Source of the DNA: Prevotella sp. E2-28
Lineage (GTDB): Bacteria > Bacteroidota > Bacteroidia > Bacteroidales > Bacteroidaceae
Assembly: GCF_022024055.1 (NCBI RefSeq)
Contig: NZ_CP091788.1
Location: 1,240,001-1,304,000, forward strand
Reading direction: 5' to 3'
DNA length: 64,000 bases
Shown here: piece by piece, positions 43,412 to 51,040 of the stretch
Layout of the letters: every line of letters starts with the position of its first letter
How positions within the stretch are numbered: the stretch's first letter is position 1
Position numbers and translations under genes: made by a program
Notes under the pieces: generated by a model
Told to the model about the DNA's origin: nothing
What the model saw: the letters and a program-made list of their open reading frames with translations, nothing else
The model's database searches: none

Positions 43412-43443
43412 TTTGGAATGTTCATGATTTTGTATTATCTTTG
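43412..43443 (+). promoter_or_regulatory. Promoter of channel/RyR/TIR operon
   Basis: TTTG (43412-43415), a 20-nt spacer and TATCTTTG (43436-43443) form a consensus Bacteroidales promoter; transcription would begin near 43450. No other equally good promoter is seen before the RyR genes, supporting one transcript through at least 46066. Confidence 0.7.
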
Positions 43444-43507
43444 CAGCGTCTGCTAACCTCAAAAACAGGTGCCAGACCCTAAGTCTCCAATAACAGAACC
43501 TAAGAAC

Positions 43508-44596
43508 ATGATTATCAGATTAAGCAAGAAGCTTCTCGCTTCAGATTTTTTGTTTTTTCAGATTATTGGCGCATCGTTAAAACGGTGGTGGCTCATGCTG
43601 ATACTTGCTATAGTAGCTTTTTCGCCTTTATACAGTTGCTATATAAGTCCGAGGAATTATATTTGTGCAGAAAATCAGTGGTATCAGTTCTTTGTATTGC
43701 TTCTGGTCGTTTGGCTATCTATATCTGTATGTAATACTCTGACTGATGTATTCAGTCTTCGAAAGAAAGAAGCTGGCATCACTTGGTGCCAAATAGCTAT
43801 TCTACTCGCTATTGGATGTCTTATTGTAGGCTTCCTGTTTATATTTGACATTACTGATAAGAGCGTTAATACGGCTGCATTTGGTATCGTTGCTTCACTG
43901 GTTGCTTGGATATTCCAAGATGCTATCAGAGGAGTAGTGTCTTTTATTCATCTTCGTATGAATCATTTGCTGCAGATTGACGATATGATTAAAGTGCCCA
44001 AATATGATGTTTATGGAAAAGTGACACGCGTGACGCTTACCACAGTCACCATATACAATTTGGATACGACAACCTCTGCCATACCAACCAGTGTGTTACT
44101 CTCAGAGCATTTCACGAATATGCAGAAGATGATAGAAGGCAAGACTTTCGGTCGGAAAATGAGCCTATCGTTTATCATGGAAACAGGAAGTTTTTATGCT
44201 TTGTCGAAAAAAGATGTTATTAAGTTTAGGGCAAATGAACGCATCACGCAGTATATCCCCCAGGAGAATATTCATGACGATATCCCTAACGCTCAGTTAT
44301 ATCGGAAATATTTGTTCCATTGGTTAATGAACAACCAGCATGTTTCCCAGCATCCACTTCTAGTTGTGAGCTGGCAGAAGCATACTGAGGCTGGCATGAT
44401 TCTGCAGATAACAGGTTTTATCATTGACAATAATATAAGTGCCTTCGAATATCAGAAGTCGCTGATTATAGAACATGTCATTCAATCTGTATCATGGTTT
44501 GGCCTGCGTCTGTATCAAACCCCGTCAAGTTTCGATTCAAGCAGCAGTACAGTCTATTTGTCAGATAAACCACTAAATGATAAACTGGAGGATTAA
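43508..44596 (+). CDS. MscS-family mechanosensitive-type ion channel
   Basis: About 362 residues from the ATG at 43508; an in-frame GTG at 43469, 18 nt after the predicted transcript start, would add 13. There are four membrane segments, the last being the MscS pore helix (AAFGIVASLVAWIFQDAIRG). The MscS beta-domain follows: DDMIKVPKYDVYGKVTRVTL and TSAIPTSVLL. The C-terminal part is longer than E. coli MscS and closer to YbdG-type channels. It ends 3 bp before the first RyR gene, so the two are translated together and the channel is a likely effector of this cluster. Confidence 0.88.
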   Translation: MIIRLSKKLLASDFLFFQIIGASLKRWWLMLILAIVAFSPLYSCYISPRNYICAENQWYQFFVLLLVVWLSISVCNTLTDVFSLRKKEAGITWCQIAILLAIGCLIVGFLFIFDITDKSVNTAAFGIVASLVAWIFQDAIRGVVSFIHLRMNHLLQIDDMIKVPKYDVYGKVTRVTLTTVTIYNLDTTTSAIPTSVLLSEHFTNMQKMIEGKTFGRKMSLSFIMETGSFYALSKKDVIKFRANERITQYIPQENIHDDIPNAQLYRKYLFHWLMNNQHVSQHPLLVVSWQKHTEAGMILQITGFIIDNNISAFEYQKSLIIEHVIQSVSWFGLRLYQTPSSFDSSSSTVYLSDKPLNDKLED

Positions 44597-44599
44597 TAT

Positions 44600-45751
44600 A
44601 TGAAAGCACAAATGGAAAAGCCCTTTGAATACCTGAGAAGGAAAGAAAACAATGCCAATTATGAAAAAGACATTGTTGATAATTGGTATAAAGCACGTGC
44701 TTTCGTTCTGGAGAAACTCAAGGATGTTGCTTTTAAACCGACGGATAATAATCATCTGCATGTTGTCGTGGATGTTGATTGTGATAAGACACATTTCAGT
44801 CCATTGATGCTGGCAGTTGTCAGGCAGATAGCCTTGTCGGCACATTATATGAACTTCTTTGAAGGTAACGATCAGGAAGCACCACGCAATCGTACGGTTA
44901 TCACCATAGTAAGCAGGAATCCTCATGTCAAAGAGAAATTGGAAAAGGAGGAATATCTCTGTAACCTGTTGCAGTATTGCTTCTATAAGGAAGGTGACTC
45001 GAAGCCAGAGAATCCAAACTCATATGTCGATTTGGAATTCCATGTAGTGCCCGAATGGACCAATGAGGAAAAATTCCGCTTTTCCGAGAAGGATGTCGAG
45101 GACTTCTGCGAGACGAAGTACAATCAGGGTGAGGATATATTCTCTATAGACACCCGTATGGCTGACTATGCTAGCAGAATGTATGGACTTGGTGCTGCTT
45201 TCGATAATTTGCCTGCGGAAGATATCCATTGCACCAAGCGTTATTCTTCGGCAATCAATATCTTCCAATACAAGAAGTTAAGTAATGCTCCCCAGCTAAT
45301 CGTCAATGGAAAAAAACAGAGTTGGAAGGACTTAAGCCTATGTAAAATCAAAGAAGAGATATCTAACATTATGTGTGCCGATTGTTTCACTATACGAGAA
45401 AGAAGCATTGAAATATGTAGGGAAAGCAAGTCCCAGAGCCTCCAGGAACTTTGGGCAACATATAATGAACCTTTGTCACGAAGTGAACATGCCAGATGGG
45501 TGGCAGAGAAACTGATTCTTGGCTATCGTCCCCTAAATGCAAAAGAGCGTTATTACGATGAAATGCTGCAAATGCAGGGTGCTAACAGGCAAGCAAGAGC
45601 AAGTTTTCGCAATATGCTGAAGCGAAATGATTGTGATCCCGCCCATATTGACCTTTGCTCCTATCGCGATTTGCGCCGTATCAATCCCAGCGATTTGAAA
45701 TATGATAGTTTCTTGATGTTAGCCATTCCTATTATTCTTAGGAAGATATAA
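44600..45751 (+). CDS. Rossmann-like plus RyR-domain protein
   Basis: A 383-residue cytoplasmic protein. Residues about 50-160 form an alpha/beta unit (HLHVVVDVDCDKTHFSP, then RTVITIVSRNP) that resembles the TrkA-type half of bacterial TrkA-RyR proteins but without a GxGxxG loop. The C-terminus (about 285-383) is a divergent RyR domain: LSRSEHARWVAEKLILGYRP, then HIDLCSYRDLRRINPSDLKYD, matching the family pattern H-x-x-W...GW/GY...HP-x-LVPY...YD. RyR domains are predicted nucleotide-ligand sensors in bacterial conflict systems. It sits between the channel and a second RyR gene. Confidence 0.75.
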   Translation: MKAQMEKPFEYLRRKENNANYEKDIVDNWYKARAFVLEKLKDVAFKPTDNNHLHVVVDVDCDKTHFSPLMLAVVRQIALSAHYMNFFEGNDQEAPRNRTVITIVSRNPHVKEKLEKEEYLCNLLQYCFYKEGDSKPENPNSYVDLEFHVVPEWTNEEKFRFSEKDVEDFCETKYNQGEDIFSIDTRMADYASRMYGLGAAFDNLPAEDIHCTKRYSSAINIFQYKKLSNAPQLIVNGKKQSWKDLSLCKIKEEISNIMCADCFTIRERSIEICRESKSQSLQELWATYNEPLSRSEHARWVAEKLILGYRPLNAKERYYDEMLQMQGANRQARASFRNMLKRNDCDPAHIDLCSYRDLRRINPSDLKYDSFLMLAIPIILRKI

Positions 45752-45784
45752 TAAGCAATTCTAAATTAAGCAAAAAGAAGAAGT

Positions 45785-46066
45785 ATGTACACCCCACAGC
45801 CCCTTGATACAAGTGATATCAGCTTACCAAAAGAGTTAGAACTTCTTGTTGAACAAATGTCAAAGAATGTCCATGAAGTATGGGCACAGACCCGCATTTC
45901 CCAAGGTTGGAAGTATGGAGCAGAGCGTAATGATGCCTTGAAACTCCATCCCTGTCTTGTACCCTACGAGGAACTCCCTGAAAGCGAAAAGGAATACGAC
46001 CGCAATACCTCTGTTGAAACCCTGAAATTGATACTAAAGCTTGGGTTTAAGATAGATAGAAAGTAA
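45785..46066 (+). CDS. Stand-alone RyR-domain protein
   Basis: A 93-residue protein that is one canonical RyR domain: PLDTSDISLPKELELLVEQM, NVHEVWAQTRISQGWKYG, HPCLVPYEELPESEKEYD and a final helix LKLILKLGFKI. These are the same conserved positions as the RyR domains of animal ryanodine receptors and of many Bacteroides proteins. It has no membrane or catalytic part, so it is likely a ligand-binding module working with a partner, here the channel or the TIR protein. Gaps of 33 and 72 bp to the neighbours fit one operon. Confidence 0.9.
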   Translation: MYTPQPLDTSDISLPKELELLVEQMSKNVHEVWAQTRISQGWKYGAERNDALKLHPCLVPYEELPESEKEYDRNTSVETLKLILKLGFKIDRK

Positions 46067-46138
46067 GAGACGATAATTTCTTGTATATAGAATAATGCCT
46101 AAGCATTTAGAGATCAAATTATTAGAAGATTGTATCTT

Positions 46139-48778
46139 ATGGAACAGCCAAAAGAATATTTCGCATTTATAAGTTATAAACGAGAAGATGAAGAATGGGC
46201 AAAATGGTTAGCACACGAGTTAGAGCACTATCACCTGCCAGTTACATTAAATGGGCGTGATGACTTGCCTCGAGAACTACGTCCTATTTTTAGGGATGCG
46301 GATGAACTGAGTGCTGGAAATTTACCAGACCAAATACATACAGCATTGATGAATTCCAAACACCTTGTCGTTATCTGTTCCCCTCGTGCTGCAAAGTCTG
46401 AGTGGGTGAATAAAGAGATAGAAGAGTTCATCAATTTTGGAAAAACAGGTAAAATATATCCATTTATTGTTGATGGTGTAGCGATGTCAAACAATATTGA
46501 CGAAGAATGTTTCCCGCCAGCATTGAAGAATATCCCAAAAGAAGAAGAAAGGTTGGGAGGAAATGTTAACGAGAAAGGACGCGATGCAGCTGTTATTAAA
46601 ATCGTTGCAGGAATGTTGAATCTTGGCTTTGATACGCTTTGGAATCGATACGAAAGAGAAAAAGCTGAAGAGGAGCAAAGAAAACGTGAAGAGCGAGATA
46701 ATTTACTAAGGCTTCAGAGCAGATATATAGCAGAAAAGGTTGAAAAACTACTAGAAAATGGGGACTCTTATTTAGCAAGGCTATTTGCATTAGAGGCATT
46801 GCCTAAAGAGTTAGAGAATCCTAACAGACCCTACGTGCCAGAAGCAGAAGCTGCACTAAGAAAGTGTGTTTGCAAAAAAGATGCTATCTTAAAAGGCCAT
46901 ACTGATAGTGTAAATTCCGTTGCTTTTAGTCCTGATGGTAAATACGTTGCATCTGCCTCATGGGATAGTCATGTAATTATTTGGGAAGTTAAAAGCGGCG
47001 CTCTGTTACATCTGCTGAGTACTAATTATGATCCAAAATATTCTTGGTTGTCATTTAGTAATGACGGAAGTCGTGTGTACGCAAGGCCAGCATCGCTAAA
47101 CATAGTTGATTGTTGGGATGTTGAAACAGGGGAGAAATTAGAGGTATATAGTGTTTGTGATGGAGATTATTTGTGTCATTATCCTAATGGTGAGCTTCTT
47201 AATATTGATTCTAATGACAAAGTATATCACGAATCATTAAAAAACATCAAAGACATTTCAGTTACATATGACGGTCGACTTCTTGCAGCATTATTTGATG
47301 AATCGGTATTGGTATGGGATACGGAAAAGAATGTGTTATTATATAGTCTTGGCAGAAGACCATCTTGTTATGCTTTCAGTTATGATGGTCAATTGATAGC
47401 CACCAGTGATTTCTATGAAATTGCTCTTTGGGATACGACAAGTGGCATATCAGTCAATTGCCGCACAAATATAGGTGAGGATAATTTCTATTTTATGTCG
47501 TTTAGTGCAAATGGAAAATATATTTTAGCAACTTCGCCAGAAGGCGTTGTCAAAATGTTTTCTGTACCTGAATTACAATTAATCAAAACATTTAAAGGCC
47601 ATACAGGTTGGTGTCATTGTGCAATTTATAGTCCAAATGAAGAGCTGATAGCCTCTGCTTCAGGTGACTGCAATATTAGGCTTTGGGGACCACAATCTTA
47701 TGAACCTGTTCACACTATTAAAACAGATTGTATGGACACTCCGTTGCTTTTATACTGCCCAGATGGAGAGCATATTCTTTATGGAGGGTCTAATTGCGAA
47801 ATCTGTATGTGTAATATCAAATCGGATTTGATAACACATTCATATAAAGGTTTGGATTCCTCTGCTCTATCTGTAGTCTTTAGTCCTGAAGGAAATAAAC
47901 TGATGGCATGCAATTCTAATAGAGTGATAATATGGGATGTGGAAACAGAGCAAGTCATTCACATATACGAAACAAAATGCCATATGGCCTGCTTCAGTCC
48001 AAATGGAAGTCAAATATTGATAGTCGGTTACAGAGATTTTCGTATTATTGATATTGCTTCTTGGCAAGTAGTAAGAACAAAAGTAAGAAACAATAAGATT
48101 AAATCAGCATTTTTTTTGCCAGATAATCAAAGTCTCGTAATAGCAACTGAACACAAATTGGAGATTTGGAGAGAATACAATGATGTTCATCGTGATATAA
48201 ATGACTCTAGTTATTGGCTATCCGCTGATAATCAACGTGTTGCTTGGGTTATCGATGATGACATTAGAGAATGGCTAAGGTGTAATAAAGTGTTTCTTCA
48301 TCAAGAATTGAACGGACATACTGATTGGATAAACTCCGTTACTTGTTCTTCAGATGGAAAAAAAATAGCATCTGCTTCAAATGATGCAACCATTAGAATT
48401 TGGGACGTTCAAGAAATGAAAGAATTAAAGGTCCTCAAGGGGCATACTGACGAAGTCCTTACTGTTGATTTTAGTAATGATGGTAAACTTCTTCTTTCGG
48501 CATCAAAAGACCGAACTGTAATAGTATGGGATGTTGAGAGTGGTATTGAATTATATCATTTGTTGATTGAAAAAGAGCAATATGATGAATTATTCAAAGC
48601 ATCATTTAGTCCGGACAATAAGTGGATAGCAACTCTTTCAAATTCAATTGGCCAACATACTTCCGTAATAAAAATCTGGCCATATTCTCCCCTCCAAGAA
48701 CTCATTGACCAGACTCGTGAGCGATTCAAGGACCGGCAATTGACTCCTGAAGAACGAAAAAAATATTATTTAAATTAA
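46139..48778 (+). CDS. TIR-domain protein with C-terminal WD40 propellers
   Basis: About 879 residues from the ATG at 46139 (MEQPKEYFAFISYKREDEEW); an upstream TTG would add 3. The TIR domain (5-130) has the strand/box FISYKREDEEWAKWL and SEWVNKEIEEF with the Glu at the NADase position. A charged coiled coil (160-210) links to about 14 WD40 blades (250-850), such as GHTDSVNSVAFSPDGKYVAS and GHTDEVLTVDFSNDGKLLLS. The propellers would sense or bind a trigger and the TIR would then consume NAD or make a signal. A copy of one blade region reappears at 50900-51040. Confidence 0.92.
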   Translation: MEQPKEYFAFISYKREDEEWAKWLAHELEHYHLPVTLNGRDDLPRELRPIFRDADELSAGNLPDQIHTALMNSKHLVVICSPRAAKSEWVNKEIEEFINFGKTGKIYPFIVDGVAMSNNIDEECFPPALKNIPKEEERLGGNVNEKGRDAAVIKIVAGMLNLGFDTLWNRYEREKAEEEQRKREERDNLLRLQSRYIAEKVEKLLENGDSYLARLFALEALPKELENPNRPYVPEAEAALRKCVCKKDAILKGHTDSVNSVAFSPDGKYVASASWDSHVIIWEVKSGALLHLLSTNYDPKYSWLSFSNDGSRVYARPASLNIVDCWDVETGEKLEVYSVCDGDYLCHYPNGELLNIDSNDKVYHESLKNIKDISVTYDGRLLAALFDESVLVWDTEKNVLLYSLGRRPSCYAFSYDGQLIATSDFYEIALWDTTSGISVNCRTNIGEDNFYFMSFSANGKYILATSPEGVVKMFSVPELQLIKTFKGHTGWCHCAIYSPNEELIASASGDCNIRLWGPQSYEPVHTIKTDCMDTPLLLYCPDGEHILYGGSNCEICMCNIKSDLITHSYKGLDSSALSVVFSPEGNKLMACNSNRVIIWDVETEQVIHIYETKCHMACFSPNGSQILIVGYRDFRIIDIASWQVVRTKVRNNKIKSAFFLPDNQSLVIATEHKLEIWREYNDVHRDINDSSYWLSADNQRVAWVIDDDIREWLRCNKVFLHQELNGHTDWINSVTCSSDGKKIASASNDATIRIWDVQEMKELKVLKGHTDEVLTVDFSNDGKLLLSASKDRTVIVWDVESGIELYHLLIEKEQYDELFKASFSPDNKWIATLSNSIGQHTSVIKIWPYSPLQELIDQTRERFKDRQLTPEERKKYYLN

Positions 48779-48941
48779 TAAATAACAGACTTAAGTTAGA
48801 TGCCGTATATATGCGAATCTGTCAATTTCTAATAAGATTATTATCGAAAAAATTAGTCGCTTGGTGTTCCATAATTAGACTTTTTTTCGTTTTAGGTATT
48901 GCAAAGATAAGAAATTCCTGCGTATATAATATGAGTTTTTA

Positions 48942-48949
48942 TACCTTTG
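48942..48949 (+). promoter_or_regulatory. -7 box before the DUF4062 gene
   Basis: TACCTTTG lies 36 nt before the ATG at 48986, without a clear TTTG 20 nt upstream. The 207-bp gap after the TIR gene may therefore hold a separate promoter. A CAAAGATA motif at 48902-48909 gives a possible opposite-facing -7 box. Confidence 0.4.
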
Positions 48950-48985
48950 TGGCGAAATAATAACTAACCGATAAAAACTATAATA

Positions 48986-50887
48986 ATGAGTGGCATAAAA
49001 GAAAAACTATTAGCTGCGTTTGATAATATGTGGCTTGTAATTAAAAAAAATGCAGAAATAAAGGGGATGAATCCAATCTTTTTCATCATCTTTCATGTTT
49101 TGAAATCATTAGCGTATACGATACCGGGGTTCCTTGTCGTACTGCTATTCCCTATAAAGTCTGATGTGAGTTATGGATGGTTTAGTGGTATATGGCAGGG
49201 ATGGTTCGGACTATGTAATATAGTGATTCGATATTTTTCCCCAGAAACTTTGTATATAGCTCCTAATTCTTCTTTAGCCTATGATATATTGTGGTGGATA
49301 TGTTTCGTTTATGCAATCCTTCTTCTTCTTTCAATCATCATCATGCCTCTTTATCATGTCCATAGTAAAAGGGATTACCAGTTTGTTGATACTACATATA
49401 AATCAGATGATAATGTACTATTACAGACACTTCAATATGGTGTGGAGACAAGTTTTGAGAAACGCGTACTCAAAATATTCATCTCATCCACATTCCAGGA
49501 TATGCAGGAGGAACGTGACTACTTGATGAGGCACACTTTTCCTGAGCTACAACGATTGGCTGCTCAACGAGGAGTGAAAATTATTCCGGTAGATCTTCGT
49601 TGGGGTATTACTGAGGAAGATTCAAAGTCGGGTAAGGTCTTGGAGTTATGTCTGCAAGAGATTGATAATGCCATACCTTTTTTCATAGGTATTATAGGAA
49701 AACGCTATGGTTGGTGTCCTTCGCACGAAGAATTTGAAAAAAGTACTTTGCTCAAAGAAAAGTATCCTTGGATAGAAAAAGATTTCAAAGACCAGTTAAG
49801 TGTGACGGAGATTGAGATGCAGTATGGCGTGTTGCGTCGTAAAGAGCGTGTCAATGCAGCATTCTTTACCACGGGTGGCAACTTTATAACATCCCAATCA
49901 GATGATAGTGAAAAAGGGAAGGTTGATCGTCTTAAGAAGGCTATTCTGGAGGATGGACGTTATTCATTGGTTGAGGTGACAGGTGGTAGCAATATGTTGG
50001 GTAATGAGGTGTACAAAATGTATACGGCGTTCTTGGATCAATATTTTCCTGTTAAGAACTCTTCTAACGACACATCTGGACATGAGACCATGGATACCTC
50101 AAAACCAACGAGATCGTATATTGAAGACTATTTGGCGCAATATAGTAAAAAACTCTCTGATGCTCAGACAGATACTATATTGCGACATCCATTAAGTGAA
50201 AATCGTGTCGTTTTGAAATCACTTCTTGATGAACTTGTTTTATTTGGTAAGTATGAGGAATTAGATGAACATATAGCTTATTTGCTTCAGGCTCAGACAC
50301 CAAGCCAGTTCTATCAAATTCTTTTACAGAGTTATGAAGAACAATATGGCGAAGAATCTGTTAGAAATTTTTTCTCAATTATGTTGTTGACGGGCTATGG
50401 ATTAAAAGTGAGAGATGCACTTCTAGCTGCTAATGTCGGGGTAAAGGCTCCTGATATTGACCCTATGGATATGATTCTGTCACCTATTAAATTTATGAGG
50501 GATTTCTTTTATGGTATTACTAATGTGCAATATTTACCCTTTGACCAGTATTTCCATACCTATTTGGAGCGACACGGTGATGTTATCAGATTGAATCATA
50601 AGTGGATGGAGCAGGCCGTTGATGAACGATATTTGACTGACGCAGGTGTGGTTAGCAAATATCGTGAGGAAATATTGGATGAAGTGGATTTGCATGCAGA
50701 TACCAGAAATCCAAGTCCTAATAACTTGGATCGTATAGAAGAGGTCGTCTATCAAATGTTGGAGCTTGGCAAAGTCTCTGATTTGCAAACATATGTTGAC
50801 TCGCCTAACGATTATGTAGTTTGTTCTTACCTTAAAAAGCGTCGGCCAGAACTGTATAAGCGAATGCTGACGTATCTGGGGTACTAA
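48986..50887 (+). CDS. Membrane protein with DUF4062 domain
   Basis: 633 residues. Three membrane segments lie in the first 125 residues (around 30-56, 66-86 and 98-124). A DUF4062 domain follows at about 160-340: LKIFISSTFQDMQEERDYL, then IPVDLRWGITEEDS and IGIIGKRYGWCPS. This is the same N-terminal module found before NACHT-WD40 in TEP1/nephrocystin-like proteins and has a TIR/SLOG-like fold in predictions. Here no NACHT P-loop follows; the C-terminal 250 residues are helical. It belongs to the TIR-RyR island by position and direction. Confidence 0.85.
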   Translation: MSGIKEKLLAAFDNMWLVIKKNAEIKGMNPIFFIIFHVLKSLAYTIPGFLVVLLFPIKSDVSYGWFSGIWQGWFGLCNIVIRYFSPETLYIAPNSSLAYDILWWICFVYAILLLLSIIIMPLYHVHSKRDYQFVDTTYKSDDNVLLQTLQYGVETSFEKRVLKIFISSTFQDMQEERDYLMRHTFPELQRLAAQRGVKIIPVDLRWGITEEDSKSGKVLELCLQEIDNAIPFFIGIIGKRYGWCPSHEEFEKSTLLKEKYPWIEKDFKDQLSVTEIEMQYGVLRRKERVNAAFFTTGGNFITSQSDDSEKGKVDRLKKAILEDGRYSLVEVTGGSNMLGNEVYKMYTAFLDQYFPVKNSSNDTSGHETMDTSKPTRSYIEDYLAQYSKKLSDAQTDTILRHPLSENRVVLKSLLDELVLFGKYEELDEHIAYLLQAQTPSQFYQILLQSYEEQYGEESVRNFFSIMLLTGYGLKVRDALLAANVGVKAPDIDPMDMILSPIKFMRDFFYGITNVQYLPFDQYFHTYLERHGDVIRLNHKWMEQAVDERYLTDAGVVSKYREEILDEVDLHADTRNPSPNNLDRIEEVVYQMLELGKVSDLQTYVDSPNDYVVCSYLKKRRPELYKRMLTYLGY

Positions 50888-50899
50888 TAGTAGAGACAC

Positions 50900-51040
50900 T
50901 TATCCTAATGGTGAACTTCTTAATATCGATTCTAATGGCAAAGTATATCACGAATCATTAAAAAACATCAAAGACATTTCAGTTACATATAACGGTCGAC
51001 TTCTTGCAGCATTATTTGATGAATCGGTAGTGGTCTGGCA
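50900..51040 (+). pseudogene. WD40 fragment, diverged copy of 47179-47319
   Basis: About 139 bp match the TIR-WD40 gene with six substitutions by my count. The reading YPNGELLNIDSNGKVYHESL is conserved in frame, and three of the six changes are silent. It starts abruptly after the DUF4062 stop and ends abruptly at the antitoxin gene. It is best read as the remnant of a second TIR-WD40-like gene. Confidence 0.75.

Follow-up and report, generated by a model that had tools for sequence, protein, structure and literature searches.

A candidate TIR-signalled, RyR-gated split channel encoded by a gene cassette of Prevotella sp. E2-28

The gene cassette described here lies in a stretch of 64,000 nucleotides of Prevotella sp. 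E2-28 (NZ_CP091788.1, positions 1,240,001-1,304,000 of the forward strand), called the window, to which the coordinates of its features are relative. Its conserved core consists of four genes, g1 to g4, and not of the whole row of five (g1-g5), and is read here, with a probability of roughly 0.55, as a TIR-signalled, RyR-gated split channel. This reading builds on domains, conserved residues, the g1-g2 dyad, g2-g3 fusions and the co-occurrence of TIR, RyR and g2-family genes, and from these we infer a chain of events that extends to the trigger, the product, its binding, the pairing of domains, the gating and an antiviral purpose. The WD40 part of g4 would sense a trigger and bring TIR domains together, and the TIRs would use NAD+ to make a signal of the ADP-ribose type, for which a cyclic ADP-ribose (cADPR) isomer is the likeliest candidate. 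This signal would be bound by the RyR domains of both g2 and g3, which probably pair up to restore a clamshell like that of the two repeats in animal receptors. Through its Rossmann (RCK-like) part, g2 would then transmit the change to g1, the MscS-type pore, the opening of which would arrest or kill the cell, most likely as abortive defence. The features of the core are as follows.

43469..44596, + strand: g1, MscS-type channel and proposed pore (PF00924, hydrophobic segments), with a GTG start or an ATG at 43508
44600..45751, + strand: g2, soluble Rossmann-like protein with a C-terminal RyR-like domain, proposed receptor and gating subunit
45488..45706, + strand: codons of g2 H297, W300, H349 and D369, proposed ligand residues (alignment rows, motif mapping)
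45785..46066, + strand: g3, lone RyR domain with H30, W33, H55 and D72 (PF02026)
46130..48778, + strand: g4, TIR-WD40 protein, proposed trigger sensor and signal-making enzyme (WD40, TIR_2, ThsB_TIR), with a TTG start at 46130 or an ATG at 46139
46415..46417, + strand: codon of g4 E93 (ATG numbering), presumed catalytic Glu (alignment of TIRs)

The g1 and g2 genes form a pair. As the initial annotation of this DNA had it, g1 encodes an MscS-type channel: the MscS beta-domain is recognized by Pfam (MS_channel_2nd, PF00924, 34.7 bits for a cut-off of 20.2), hydrophobic segments are present, and the closest sequence in the PDB is an MscS/YnaI chimera (E 0.0017). The gene immediately precedes g2, in the same orientation, in 15/15 loci of other genomes, each place being counted once (L008 and L017, like L009 and L018, are the same places and were merged); 14 of the pairs were seen by open reading frame (ORF) and that of L024 by tblastn, the ORF picker having overlooked g1. 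When 389 same-family genomes were searched with a g1 profile, the five top scores (E 7.5e-196 to 3.6e-70) came from those five genomes that have a short g2, while the matches from the sixth-best on (E 5.7e-49) are taken for housekeeping MscS channels.

The g2 protein itself has no hydrophobic segment. Its long relatives number 27, and N-terminal hydrophobic segments were found in six of the eight checked (L061, L014 twice, L097, L090 and L060) and are absent from the other two (L063 and L071). From these sequences we infer that the pore of the g2 family may be either part of the same chain or supplied separately by g1, as in the window, and it seems to be interchangeable across the family. One long relative (L097:5273-7726) combines N-terminal hydrophobic segments with two C-terminal RyR domains in a single chain; encoded next to it is a large TIR-like protein that matches RHS repeats weakly. 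Other g2-like proteins, of about 480 residues (L063:7460-8902, L068:9467-10945 and L071:8491-9939; the two checked have no hydrophobic segments), have conserved neighbours that are FHA- and kinase-like by eye.

The g3 protein is a lone RyR domain, as claimed earlier: it reaches 127.6 bits with the RyR family PF02026 (cut-off 27.4) and matches RyR1-3 in the PDB sequence search. According to the portions covered of a 2026 preprint (PMC13232231), the phage protein RyDEP, of the same Pfam family, hydrolyses 2'/3'cADPR, whereas six of eight phage homologues tested bind this molecule without hydrolysis; the ligand contacts H75, W78, H100 and D117 are, as reported there, shared by the RyR repeats of animals, and no bacterial TIR-RyR operon is named in these portions. 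On the basis of motif and spacing rather than of structure, the four contacts map to H30, W33, H55 and D72 of g3 and to H297, W300, H349 and D369 of g2. H30, W33 and D72 are found in 35/35 RyR rows and H55 in 20/35 (the alignment of RyR tails excludes L097, and in L067 the domain is not terminal), and the g2 residues are kept in 121, 121, 114 and 121 of 121 aligned rows. As judged from sequence, the H/W/H/D set used by phage RyR proteins to bind 2'/3'cADPR is retained in both g2 and g3. In animal receptors, adenine nucleotides are bound in the clamshell of RyR Repeat12 (PMC12627627, in the part covered). Among 50,697 phage records, 110 also encode a g3-like RyR, in keeping with the counter-defence family of RyDEP.

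The g2 family comprises 732 profile matches, and none of the 120 listed has a named function. The whole-g2 model has no Foldseek match at E <= 0.001, the best hit of g2 in the PDB sequence search (E 0.089) is unrelated, and g2 has no match in plasmids and none in viral contigs. In two of the 120 listed homologues, g2 and g3 are fused by linkers of 27 and 34 residues; because of these fusions and of the L097 chain with its two RyR domains, the data suggest that g3 completes a RyR pair with g2. Within the same chain of events, g3 might instead be an off-switch that removes the TIR signal by hydrolysis or sequestration, g2 alone being the receptor of the channel. Consistent with this, the phage RyR proteins include one 2'/3'cADPR glycosidase as well as sponges, H30 and D72 of g3 match the catalytic H and D of RyDEP (PMC13232231, portions covered), and six of the 15 g1-g2 loci have no RyR match in the fetched span. 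However, the fusions and the tandem of L097 place the domain on the channel side, and eight of the phage homologues tested were non-hydrolysing despite their conserved residues (same portions); a role of g3 as off-switch is unlikely.

On the signal-making side, the description of g4 as a TIR-WD40 protein was borne out in both parts: Pfam finds WD40 repeats, and residues 1-185 alone score above cut-off with TIR_2 (61.6 bits) and with ThsB_TIR (PF08937, 38.3 bits for a cut-off of 21.2). W89, V90 and E93 are invariant in 7/7 aligned TIRs, and E93 is presumably the catalytic Glu, a role that we assume from that in SARM1. The TIR of g4 is accordingly predicted to be ThsB-like with a catalytic Glu. 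In three other loci (L009:13370-17231, L019:4689-8550 and L023:4579-6888), secreted-looking proteins separate the TIR from g2/g3; L009:13370, the one scanned, is rich in TPR repeats, and such proteins perhaps take the sensor place of WD40.

A ThsB-like TIR with a presumed catalytic Glu, beside genes with a domain that binds cADPR isomers, recalls Thoeris. Here, in contrast, the receptor would be RyR and the effector an MscS-type channel, and the TIR is fused to WD40. Described Thoeris effectors include the SIR2-SLOG ThsA, Macro-TM and caspase-like types, and none of these domains was found by Pfam in g1, g2, g3, g5 or the TIR of g4 (newer types V and VI were not covered); for the cassette as a whole, no SLOG, SIR2 or Macro domain is reported in g1-g5 (for g4, 25 of 58 families were listed and the TIR part was scanned alone). 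Because no described Thoeris effector domain was found, the cassette is not filed under Thoeris despite the like logic.

The link between the TIR and the channel side comes from genome-wide surveys. In 399 same-family genomes, each searched for the three components, g2-family genes occur in 41 genomes (five of them with a short g2), g4-type TIRs in 36 and PF02026 in 51; nine of 61 g2-family rows, being second pieces of genes already counted, were dropped. The overlaps amount to 24 genomes for g2-TIR, 30 for g2-RyR and 26 for TIR-RyR, with odds ratios of 41, 44 and 35, respectively (Fisher p 7.1e-19 or lower). By genus (30 genera), the p-values are 5.3e-6, 7.3e-5 and 2.4e-4; g2-family genes are present in each of the 12 genera with such TIRs. 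In addition, 10 of 55 TIRs lie within 5 kb of a RyR or g2-family gene versus 0.36 expected, and 16 of 55 within 10 kb versus 0.64 expected; as a partial control, of the 29 TIRs whose genomes have a listed housekeeping MscS gene, none came as close as 10 kb to it (21 positions, among the matches listed). The genome of the window has one PF02026 gene and one g4-type TIR, both in this locus. The conserved co-occurrence that the initial annotation had named as a check was found, g1 adjoining g2 at all 15 other loci and TIR, RyR and g2 genes co-locating far above chance. Elsewhere, on 9 kb of contig C1 (G003), no transketolase match was seen, such a match having been sought as a sign of a C50-C1 join between g2 and a TIR.

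Several observations weigh against a TIR-signalled split channel. Counts and p-values of co-occurrence are inflated, since the genomes include related species, and linked TIRs served as seeds of the TIR profile, among them at least two of the 16 found within 10 kb (those of the window and of G625). Only six of the 15 g2 loci have a TIR in the fetched span: those of L009, L015, L019 and L023 are of the g4 type, those of L016 and L057 of another. A RyR is present in the span of nine, in two of them only fused to another protein; several of these spans are short, and the bare g1-g2 loci L020, L021, L022 and L025 are near-identical. At L094, where neither g1 nor g2 is matched in 19 kb, a TIR-WD40 gene accompanies a lone RyR. 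Concerning g2, the Pfam scan matched no family, a thin profile comparison of its tail with g3 gave 2%, and the structure model of the isolated tail (predicted local distance difference test 77.7, predicted template modelling score 0.59) returned no RyR among its Foldseek and VIA rows. For RCK, a weak Slo-like match below cut-off appears in one long g2 relative and none in g2. Finally, neither defence database scanned (PADLOC and NCBIfam) names the cassette: PADLOC matched g4 through its TIR or repeat parts only (best TIR-kind SAVED_TIR, E 1.5e-8) and g5 weakly as Csm2, and NCBIfam matches of the cassette proteins are far under cut-off. The C-terminal domain of g2 was detected solely via the profiles of bridging relatives and is therefore named RyR-like rather than a Pfam member; of the earlier description of g2 as a Rossmann-like/RyR protein, the RyR part holds through these relatives but not through a Pfam RyR match.

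This patchiness bears on whether the row is an island of independent parts, in which g1-g2, perhaps with g3, would be one system, and g4 and g5 separate NADase defences adjoining by chance. The nine g2 loci without a TIR in the fetched span (subject to the short spans and near-identical loci just mentioned), the arrangement at L094 and the apparent separateness of g5 all point this way. Yet TIR, RyR and g2 genes co-occur genome-wide even when they are not adjacent, 12/12 TIR-bearing genera carry g2-family genes, and TIR products are among the known ligands of PF02026 proteins (PMC13232231, portions covered), which makes chance adjoining improbable. Because a TIR is found at only six of 15 g2 loci, four times of the g4 type, the five-gene row is seen as a local arrangement of modular parts. 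The earlier view of channel, RyR and TIR as one set thus stands for the genome-wide co-occurrence and for the g1-g2 dyad but not for a constant TIR at g2 loci, and the accompanying idea that the TIR makes a nucleotide, RyR binds it and the channel responds gains support from the co-occurrence and a precedent in biochemistry from the 2'/3'cADPR-binding phage PF02026 proteins (PMC13232231), though as a whole only in part.

The fifth gene and the flanking elements are listed below.

43413..43443, + strand: putative promoter upstream of g1, TTG-N20-TATCTTTG, which we take to be of the Bacteroidales type (pattern scan)
48942..48949, + strand: -7-like box TACCTTTG upstream of g5 (pattern scan)
48986..50887, + strand: g5, protein with a DUF4062 domain (PF13271) and two hydrophobic segments near its N-terminus, a neighbour that probably lies outside the core
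50900..51038, + strand: 139-bp copy of g4 sequence (47179-47317) behind g5, recombination scar (blastn, 95.7% identity)

The initial annotation had placed all five genes in one unit behind a consensus promoter. The ORF coordinates agree with five + strand genes separated by 3, 33, 72 and 207 bp (72 being counted from the g4 ATG at 46139), and the promoter pattern is present before g1, but the same loose pattern was found once more in the scan, within g1 at 43636. As for g5, its description as a membrane DUF4062 protein is confirmed by a PF13271 match of 52.9 bits, identifying the TIR-like DUF4062 domain, and by the two hydrophobic segments. A single five-gene operon was rejected in view of the -7-like box of g5, of the g4-copy scar, which starts 12 bp past the g5 stop, and of the other g2 loci: no DUF4062 was found at these 15 with one single-sequence hidden Markov model (HMM) and one pattern, both unreliable for divergent copies (that of L101 escaped the HMM). 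The one DUF4062 gene near RyR genes is in L101. Owing to its own box and to the g4 copy behind it, g5 is probably a separate unit; it probably encodes a neighbouring NADase. A recent article (PMC13174449, in the part covered) describes proteins with DUF4062 as TIR-like NADases that include the Swarozyc defence as one group, and g5 therefore fits a defence neighbourhood; it resembles Swarozyc in its DUF4062 domain with a TEIE motif (at 275/277) but differs in its two N-terminal hydrophobic segments and in not being seen to travel with g1-g4.

Around the cassette, the g4 copy is followed by a 63-residue ORF (together window:50900-51232), antitoxin-like by eye and with no Pfam match, and a VapE/BT4734-like gene and a DUF6078 gene precede g1 on the - strand (window:40464-43090); a DUF6078-like gene, 43% identical to the window copy, is also near the cassette in L015. 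In same-genus genomes, the nitrilase/PAD pair occurs without g1-g5 in 4/4 cases (20 kb fetched per genome); a clean empty site could not be defined in these four, where the left flank is not conserved.

RyR domains are also fused to anti-sigma-like proteins with weak zf-HC2 or C39-like matches (L073:10087-12291, L057:10445-12633, L015:15883-17443 and L016:5131-6862). Sigma-like genes adjoin all four, with a weak Sigma70 match in L016 only, and PrsW-type protease genes are next to some. In L074:7904-8974, a PrsW intramembrane protease bears a C-terminal RyR domain, both above the Pfam cut-off. Possibly, the anti-sigma-like fusions are a transcriptional output of the same signal.

Such proteins could belong to a cellular stress circuit rather than to phage defence, in which an NAD-derived signal, through RyR domains on channels, anti-sigma-like and PrsW proteins, would tune ion balance and transcription. 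The RyR fusions beside sigma-like genes (L073, L057, L015 and L016) and on PrsW (L074) are consistent with it, as is the lack of any defence-library match other than TIR-type ones. TIR-sensor fusions, however, are typical of defence, the spread is patchy (g2 family in 41/399 genomes, short g2 in five), and the cassette is absent beside the same nitrilase/PAD genes in the four same-genus genomes; a stress circuit is thus doubtful. Compared with the TIR-signalled split channel itself, a wider version is held more tentatively. It sees a bacterial ryanodine-receptor-like pathway, in which a TIR-made cADPR signal and the paired RyR domains of g2 and g3 would open an MscS-type (or same-chain) pore, possibly with a second, anti-sigma-like/PrsW output.

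Beyond Thoeris and Swarozyc, the cassette can be compared with two groups of RyR proteins. Like phage RyDEP, g3 belongs to PF02026 and has the four ligand residues, which the g2 tail keeps as well; unlike it, g3 is bacterial and stands beside a TIR and a channel, not in a phage counter-defence operon, and its activity is known only as a prediction. Animal ryanodine receptors (Repeat12) likewise have RyR domains on a membrane channel, g3 matching RyR1-3, and two such domains per chain, as in L097 and the g2-g3 fusions. However, the g1 pore is MscS-type and encoded separately, a Rossmann part lies between, and no further receptor domains are seen. No CD-NTase family of CBASS was detected in the nine window proteins scanned with Pfam. 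Among the matches listed for the literature on TIR, cADPR, anti-phage systems and CBASS, none mentions a mechanosensitive channel, and among those on RyR and Thoeris only the RyDEP preprint (PMC13232231) concerns phage or bacterial RyR domains, judging by title and abstract. Within the literature covered, which leaves aside a 2025 survey of TIR systems, the cassette may be an unnamed anti-virus defence.

If the proposal is true, TIR signalling in Bacteroidales would use RyR receptors and ion-channel effectors, which would help to account for the RyR sponges and hydrolases borne by phages and would give a role to the g2 family with its 732 profile matches. The cassette would also provide a small model for the response of RyR to cADPR-type signals, an old question of animal calcium signalling, and the wider pathway, if real, would amount to a bacterial cADPR-to-RyR-channel axis, either parallel to the debated axis of animals or ancestral to it.

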